Positions 7,771 to 9,627 of a stretch of DNA of 58,620 nucleotides are shown here, piece by piece. The position numbers and the translations under genes are program-made. The notes under the pieces were generated by a model that worked only from the letters and a program-made list of their open reading frames with translations, searched no databases and was not told where the DNA came from. Position 1 is the first letter of the stretch; each line of letters starts with the position of its first letter. This stretch comes from Clostridiales bacterium (lineage in GTDB: Bacteria; Bacillota; Clostridia; Oscillospirales; CAG-272): contig JAAVYP010000044.1 of the NCBI GenBank assembly GCA_022791195.1, positions 1-58,620 on the forward strand. Direction: 5' to 3'.

Positions 7771-7800
7771 TTGAAAAATGATAAACGAATGTGGTAAAAT
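7771..7800 (+). promoter_or_regulatory. Promoter of the candidate ncRNA
   Basis: TTGAAA (7771-7776) and TAAAAT (7795-7800) are 18 bp apart. The expected start site (about 7807) falls exactly at the first base pair of the RNA's closing helix, which supports both calls. Confidence 0.75.
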
Positions 7801-7806
7801 ATGTCT

Positions 7807-8117
7807 GTACCGTGGTCGCCGGCTTTCCGGTGGGTAAGGTGTTGATGCACCCGAATCGGTTGGAATGGGTCCAGCATATCCAACCGTCCACGGTATTCAC
7901 TTCAGGAGAGAGAGCTCCCAAAAGAGAATAGAATATTCAAATGATTGCAGCAATGCTGCAAAGATGTATGGAAGCAATTTCTTGCCATCGACATCCATCT
8001 GTATACAGTATACAGATGGAATGCCAAAAAGTCAATATATTTGTCGAAAAAGTACTTTCGGTGAACAAAAACACTGGTTGAAACACAGTATTTACTGTGT
8101 CAGCCAGTGTTTTTTTA
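7807..8117 (+). ncRNA. Candidate structured non-coding RNA with a four-way junction
   Basis: About 311 nt run from a sigma-A promoter to a strong terminator without a credible reading frame. The 5' part folds into a four-way junction. P1 is TACCGTGG 7808-7815 with CCACGGTA 7888-7895 (8 perfect pairs). P2 is GCCGG/CCGGT 7818-7831. P3 is GGTG/CACC 7838-7851. P4 is GGTTGGA/TCCAACC 7858-7885, extended by ATG/CAT. Downstream are GGAG/CTCC, TTGCAGC/GCTGCAA (7945-7961) and an 11-bp hairpin CCATCTGTATA/TATACAGATGG (7995-8019). It does not carry the signature sequences of RNase P, SRP RNA, tmRNA or common riboswitches that I can recognise. Its class is unknown. No gene lies immediately downstream in the same unit, so a trans-acting RNA is more likely than a riboswitch. 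Confidence 0.6.
8067..8117 (+). terminator. Terminator of the candidate ncRNA
   Basis: ACACTGG (8071-8077) pairs with CCAGTGT (8104-8110). An inner stem ACACAGTA/TACTGTGT (8083-8100) sits inside, and seven T follow. Confidence 0.88.
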
Positions 8118-8235
8118 GAATTTTGAAATTTTCTTAATTCTTCTTAAAACCGCATACAAATCAAGCTGGTTTTTGTATAATAATGGCGAAAAAGAAAAAT
8201 CATCGAACCATGCATTGGTTGAGAAAGGGATTGAC

Positions 8236-8352
8236 ATGATGATAAAAAAGAATGAGAAAAAAAGAAGCGTGAATGTAATTGGCATGATTGTTGCCGTGAT
8301 TGCTTTGATGGGCGTTTGCTTGTGCGCCGAAATTGGCAGAAAAAATCACTGA
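8236..8352 (+). CDS. Small single-pass membrane peptide, 38 aa
   Basis: A short frame (M-M-I-K-K-N-E-K-K-R start) has a basic N-terminus, one hydrophobic segment (VIGMIVAVIALMGVCLC) and a short polar tail. AAAGGGA lies 5 nt before the ATG, and a TATAAT box is at 8176-8181, though without a clear -35. The N-in positive charge followed by one membrane span is typical of small bacterial membrane proteins and of some type I toxins. No family is recognised. It lies between the ncRNA terminator and a bidirectional terminator, as its own unit. Confidence 0.5.
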   Translation: MMIKKNEKKRSVNVIGMIVAVIALMGVCLCAEIGRKNH

Positions 8353-9433: not shown

Positions 9434-9592
9434 TCTATTTTACCTCCGTATGGATTCAAAACAAAAACTTCCTTTACGATACGGCGACCGAAAAGAAAGC
9501 TCACAATAAAATCTATATGATCGTTTTCTCCTCGGCAGGAAAGCGCTTTTACAAAATGCAGCTTTTACCGTAACCTGCTGTCTTTGGATTGT
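9434..9592 (-). ncRNA. Ribosomal protein L10 leader
   Basis: On the minus strand the 5' UTR of rplJ contains CCAAAGACAGCAGG (complement of 9574-9587) and the partner CCTGCCGAGG (complement of 9530-9539), the hallmark sequences of the L10 leader family. CAGCAGG pairs with CCTGC, and an AAAAGC-rich arm lies between. In known bacteria L10-L12 complex binds this leader to shut off rplJL translation. Confidence 0.85.
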
Positions 9593-9598
9593 TTTCTT

Positions 9599-9627
9599 AT
9601 TCTATCATATGATTATGCATAAGTCAA
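9599..9627 (-). promoter_or_regulatory. Promoter of rplJL
   Basis: Read on the minus strand, TTGACT (complement of 9622-9627) and TAGAAT (complement of 9599-9604) are separated by 17 bp, placing the start just before the L10 leader. Confidence 0.75.

Follow-up and report, generated by a model that had tools for sequence, protein, structure and literature searches.

A new family of four-way-junction RNAs from Clostridia with hypervariable loops and a predicted convergent antisense promoter

The window, by which we mean the whole 58,620-nucleotide stretch of DNA analysed here, carries a predicted self-standing RNA gene; it has its own promoter, shows compensatory changes on the window strand and lacks a consistent neighbour gene. 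Comparison with related genomes identifies its predicted product as a member of a new family of four-way-junction non-coding RNAs (ncRNAs) that is absent from Rfam. A published set of 3161 intergenic candidate structured RNAs of human microbiomes comprises objects of the same kind from a similar habitat, and a listed, unnamed candidate in it may overlap the new family (PMC8040213). A well-supported RNA family, with its strand, ends and architecture fixed comparatively, is thereby added for a poorly covered order of gut Clostridia. Furthermore, hypervariable loops that match across two different scaffolds and a convergent promoter close to the consensus jointly predict an RNA-RNA recognition code outside plasmids. 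On the comparative evidence, we consider the chances roughly balanced that these RNAs act in trans, recognise their partners by a loop code and are restrained by antisense transcription.

Results and discussion

The RNA gene of the window

A previous sequence-only reading of this DNA had proposed an orphan structured RNA with a sigma-A promoter starting transcription at about 7807, precisely where a four-way junction begins. The promoter is indeed present (TTGAAA-18-TAAAAT); it matches the consensus at 10/12 positions, has a TG upstream of the -10 box in the manner of extended -10 promoters, and retains both hexamers unchanged in the congeneric genome G001, where substitutions fall in the spacer. 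The -10 box ends 8 nt before the modelled P1, at the upper end of the 1-8 nt seen in the family. The four paired helices of that reading, P1-P4, are recovered in both the MFE and the centroid structures (Table 1), with a closing helix of nine pairs in both rather than the eight originally counted. The complete 319-nt unit has a folding z-score of -7.0, and none of 100 shuffled sequences is equally stable. Similarly, the strong terminator said to end at 8117 is borne out by inverted-repeat arms followed by a T run, and at its place G001 has another hairpin with a T run. The junction itself is 100% identical in G001, with flanks diverged by substitutions and indels. G001 is the only close relative carrying the window RNA; searches of the congeneric genomes G002 and G003 yielded no match to it.

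As regards the interior of the unit, in which the earlier reading saw no credible gene, the 90-aa ORF at 7865-8137 has no Pfam match and spans several indels relative to G001. Taken together, conservation and compensatory changes, along with a constant spacing of the promoter and the presence of terminators, strongly support an independent, promoter-driven structured ncRNA.

Table 1. Predicted features of the RNA locus (window coordinates)
Feature	Position	Strand	Remarks
Sense promoter	7771-7800	+	TTGAAA 7771-7776, 18-nt spacer, TAAAAT 7795-7800
Four-way-junction RNA domain (family core)	7807-7896	+	MFE and centroid agree; model match 7809-7893
P1, 5' strand	7807-7815	+	pairs with 7888-7896; 9 pairs
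P2 hairpin	7816-7833	+	arms 7816-7822/7827-7833; loop CUUU
P3 hairpin	7838-7851	+	arms 7838-7842/7847-7851; loop is the family's hypervariable position
P4 hairpin	7857-7886	+	arms 7857-7867/7875-7886, one bulge; loop with UCCAG
P1, 3' strand	7888-7896	+	no U-run after it in the window; U-run in most relatives
Near-perfect palindrome TCCATCTGTATACAGTATACAGATGGA	7994-8020	.	overlaps the antisense -10
Convergent antisense promoter	8007-8035	-	TTGACT 8035-8030, 17 nt, TATACT 8012-8007
Intrinsic terminator of the sense RNA	8067-8117	+	arms 8067-8085/8096-8114, then T run

Detection and distribution of the family

Starting from the window and continuing with a distant copy, DNA searches led to dispersed copies in the genomes G012, G011 and G026. 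A first covariance model (R1), built from ten dispersed copies with the window excluded, detects the window at 7809-7893 with 24.9 bits (E ~2e-4 in the loci searched). Two later models score it, within its own genome, at 49.1 bits (R2; E = 1e-8) and 44.4 bits (R3; E = 9e-7), values that are not independent as both models include the window. Off-target pattern matches in other phyla and rejected coding matches reach at most 25.5 bits with R2, those of the pattern in Actinobacteria, Proteobacteria and others staying at or below 22 bits.

R1 matched 12 of the 395 genomes searched in the window's family; the matches in G200 and G134 were judged false and rejected, being GC-rich and apparently coding, with neither a promoter nor a U-run. 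With the refined models, carriers number 24 of 385 genomes of the window's GTDB family (R3) and 16 of 394 genomes of the order (R2), the latter distributed over six families; one further genome, from another family of the class, has both promoter and junction. In total we collected about 95 distinct copies, which come from six or more families belonging to a single order of Clostridia. As the large-sample searches were strictly filtered, the carrier counts are lower bounds, and the genomes compared are mostly draft MAGs. The public titles of the carriers are those of 'Clostridia bacterium' or 'Oscillospiraceae bacterium' MAGs, many of them from herbivore guts. Some genomes hold 6-11 copies, frequently in arrays that also contain a second, probably longer RNA type. 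The patchy spread, with 24/385 carriers even in the window's own GTDB family, indicates that the RNA family is accessory.

The flanks of about 50 copies, inspected through ORF lists and recognisable sequences, contain no recurrent neighbour gene and no consistently adjacent transposase or integrase; no rRNA or tRNA adjoins any of the first 20 copies, many of which lie at contig ends.

The covariance search against Rfam that had been suggested for the window yielded no counterpart in Rfam 15. Membership in the raiA type, raised as a possibility at the same time, finds no support: the raiA model (RF03072) has no match in the window, either at the Rfam gathering score or at E-values up to 10. Six carrier genomes are likewise without a raiA match, as are the control genomes of the same search. 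The raiA motif RNA (ModT) does resemble the present RNA in being an orphan, independently transcribed structured RNA of Clostridia; in contrast, its 209-position model finds nothing here. Weak matches to eukaryotic miRNA and snoRNA families (E up to 10) were set aside, and stem mostly from the terminator hairpin.

Covariation and the folded strand

Alignment A5 has 30 distinct rows; double-sided changes occur at 24 of its 33 pairs, and 94.7% of the cells are paired. Sliding one partner lowers the pairing to 32-46%. In alignment A6, with 93 distinct rows, 93.1% of the cells are paired, as against 38-51% in the slid controls. The conservation of P1-P4 in homologues, which the sequence-only reading proposed to check, is well attested: 29/33 pairs covary by double-sided changes in A6, and 0/500 shuffles approach the observed level on A5. 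Both alignments were fitted to the structure and are hence biased in its favour; nevertheless, given how large the effect is and how far pairing falls in the slid controls, there is little room for doubt about the covariation. Placed in the family frame, the window has 24 standard pairs, of which 21 have double-sided alternatives among its relatives, with P3 and P4 partly gapped or misaligned on account of their differently shaped stems. Among the alignment cells G-U pairs outnumber A-C combinations by 423 to 38, which identifies the window strand as the folded RNA and rules out the antisense strand as the structured one.

Typical copies and the antisense promoter

A typical copy, which we term type I, consists of a -35 box close to TTGAAA or TTGCAA, 17 nt, TATAAT, 1-8 nt, the helices P1, P2, P3, P4 and P1', and a U-run. 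P2, with the family consensus GCCGG-NNNN-CCGGU, is the most conserved part of the RNA; the P4 loop has CCA or CUA in many relatives at the place of the window's UCCAG. The sense promoter matches at 9/12 positions or better in 91% of type I copies, as against 7% under the null, and P1 is mostly followed by at least six U in 8 nt. Most copies, comprising promoter, junction and U-run, are about 100 nt long, the U-run coming straight after P1. Consequently, of the proposed ncRNA of about 311 nt the independent unit stands, and the length does not extend to most relatives. The window copy is a single, somewhat atypical type I member with a 3' extension of about 200 nt to 8117; it has no U-run, a typical and not a defining feature that a few other copies also lack. 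The extension is a local variant, the conserved element being the junction only.

Downstream of the RNA, 72% of type I copies have a predicted convergent antisense promoter with at least 11/12 matches, as against 0.1% of shuffled flanks. A perfect TTGACA-N16-18-TATAAT occurs in 55% of type I copies and in none of the shuffled flanks, and only 16% of the second RNA type have such an antisense promoter. Among the copies of G012 the spacers of this promoter differ while its hexamers stay constant, which argues for its function. In several copies the predicted antisense start lies at the end of the U-run, so that the two transcripts would be nearly coextensive. The corresponding promoter of the window has 10/12 matches, lies about 110 nt from P1 and is weaker and more distant than those of its relatives; taken alone it is not significant, and both of its hexamers are kept in G001.

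The palindrome at this position is 27 nt long, contains GTATAC repeats, has the look of an operator and is only partly kept in G001. A small hairpin (GUCY-loop with CCGGC-RGAC) was noticed between the U-run and the antisense start in the 3' flanks of type I copies of G011, G012, G026, G154, G044 and G511; its changes are more compatible with a stem in the antisense transcript, where they give U-G, than with one in the sense transcript, where they give C-A.

A second RNA type with the same loops

The second RNA, type II, is related to type I and lies upstream and sometimes also downstream of type I in G011, G012, G026, G154, G380 and G511. It has a promoter and a three-way junction of P1, P3 and P4 without P2. 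Complete upstream copies have about 150-200 nt more of conserved sequence, which terminates at a hairpin that has T runs on either strand; type II is probably longer than type I. Within its 3' domain (columns 100-250 of alignment A7) CCCGAAAGATAACTCC and GACAAAAGATTCACATCCTTTG are conserved, with no predicted consensus fold. No type II partner was found in the 83% complete window genome (G000) or in G001.

The stems of type II are almost invariant, with 96% identity in the P3 stem versus 47% in the P3 loop. When upstream type II copies are compared with type I copies of the same array, the loops show 15 mismatches in P3 versus 48 expected and 5 in P4 versus 31 expected. Identical P3 loops are shared by 7 of 14 type I/type II pairs, against 0.5 expected in a permutation test, and p is 0.001 when the loops are permuted within genomes only. 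In G026 no two of the eight type I P3 loops are alike. As the stems around the loops differ between the two types, the sharing is unlikely to stem from gene conversion of a 7-nt tract. Not every array has a type II, and loops also differ between some neighbours (L068). As a separate observation, two P3 loop sequences appear to have swapped array positions in the orthologous arrays of G011 and G380, and two arrays of G186 hold the same two P3 loops in opposite order; the loci compared are L056 versus L078 and L084 versus L159.

A possible mechanism and its alternatives

The presence of shared loops on different scaffolds suggests that both RNAs meet the same partner. Neither complements of the loops on the sense strand near the arrays nor P3-P4 loop-loop pairings are in excess over shuffled sequences. 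The antisense RNA of type I would be the one certainly complementary partner, and with no other complement on the sense strand near the arrays the simplest scheme is that it controls type I and recognises type II. According to this scheme the constant junction and P2 would form a scaffold and possibly a protein dock, the conservation of P2 suggesting a bound protein, and the P3 and P4 loops would provide the specific recognition surface. The antisense transcript would be the complement of type I and, as the loops are shared, would match those of the type II partner as well; it might limit type I in cis and recognise type II by loop-loop pairing, as in plasmid copy control. Loop diversification would prevent cross-reaction between copies that coexist in a genome. 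The window would have kept only type I, with a longer 3' tail. We put forward more tentatively a generalised form, in which two constant scaffolds (four-way in type I, three-way in type II) carry the same short hypervariable loop pair as a locus address, to be read by the type I antisense RNA or by an outside target, with many orthogonal addresses per genome.

The plasmid systems ColE1 RNA I/RNA II and CopA/CopT offer a parallel, with an antisense RNA and loops that could diversify into incompatibility-like specificity groups. In contrast to them, the present RNAs are chromosomal, have no replicon or mRNA attached, and share loops between two sense scaffolds.

The main rival to antisense control, unlikely yet deserving serious attention, regards type I and type II as two scaffolds for the same guides. 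Their loops would pair with a common outside target, be it mRNA or the DNA of a mobile element or phage, the loci would differ by target, and the antisense promoter would only tune dosage. Loops that are common to two different scaffolds and otherwise hypervariable, the patchy and multicopy distribution, and the failure to find a sense-strand partner near the arrays all agree with such guides; against them stand the small size of the loops (only about 7 and 6 nt) and the fact that no nuclease, recombinase or other gene consistently adjoins the RNAs.

We regard as distinctly improbable a toxin-antitoxin-like pair of overlapping small RNAs, in which one strand would be active or toxic and the convergent antisense RNA would neutralise it. 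The model is SdsR/RyeA, the type VIII toxin-antitoxin system of E. coli, which likewise has two overlapping sRNAs with convergent promoters (predicted ones in our case) and a structured member of about 100 nt; it differs in being a single locus rather than a multicopy family and in sharing no loops with a second scaffold. To our knowledge, no sequence or structure relation exists between SdsR/RyeA and the new family. In many copies the convergent promoters nearly bound the RNA, and the patchy, multicopy occurrence is that of addiction modules. However, such a pair does not on its own account for the loops shared with type II, and its toxicity is putative. Mutually cis-encoded sRNAs that degrade each other are a known precedent (PMC6610125).

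Slimmer still is the chance of a mobile or repeat element that spreads in copies and needs its structure for nothing but its own transposition. Up to 11 copies per genome, tandem copies and the many copies near contig ends would fit it, and multicopy motifs have been handled as mobile or repeat candidates elsewhere (PMC11109978). The lack of a consistently adjoining transposase or integrase, the conservation of promoter spacing and of G-U-rich RNA pairing, and single copies that keep common neighbours, such as those located 3' of rplL-rplJ both in the window and in G395, or the array that G011 has in common with G380, speak against it, as does the search of 2.9 million viral contigs with one P2-based pattern, which gave no match.

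That P1 and the U-run form an attenuator, making the RNA a cis-acting leader that controls a downstream gene, is very improbable: a U-run directly after P1 does resemble an expression platform, but the downstream genes are unrelated and often convergent, those next to the window copy being a 38-aa ORF preceded by a separate -10 box, and the convergent rplL-rplJ. Least credible of all is that the RNA is a divergent representative of an already described family, raiA for instance. Size and clostridial distribution might plead for this, but neither the window nor 40 related loci have an Rfam 15 match at the gathering score or a credible one at higher E-values.

Genomic neighbourhood of the window copy

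The window RNA lies between an ABC transporter operon on the minus strand and the convergent rplL-rplJ genes. In G395, from another genus, a copy is also found 3' of rplL-rplJ (L10 being identified by similarity to that of the window), and the copy of G317 has neighbours in common with the other neighbours of G395; this shared context suggests that these copies may occupy an old chromosomal position.

The claim that no gene lies directly downstream of the terminator needs some qualification. About 120 nt beyond it, at 8236-8352 (+), is an ORF for a 38-aa single-helix peptide (MMIKKNEKKRSVNVIGMIVAVIALMGVCLCAEIGRKNH), with a separate TATAAT box some 55 nt before it; in G001 the peptide is conserved at a length of 39 aa. 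A conserved direct repeat, CTTAATTCTTCTTAA, precedes the ORF. A small hydrophobic peptide was rejected as a partner of the family, as it accompanies only 2 of 72 copies. The window genome also has an interspersed repeat, TGTAACGGTGCCGGC...GTTACA, at L105 (G000:C17:61561-61633) and L106 (G000:C63:99-171); with a weak 20-bit resemblance to P1-P2 and no U-run after P1, it is probably unrelated to the RNA. Finally, the Rfam L10 leader is recognised with 61 bits at 9453-9605 (-), upstream of rplJ.
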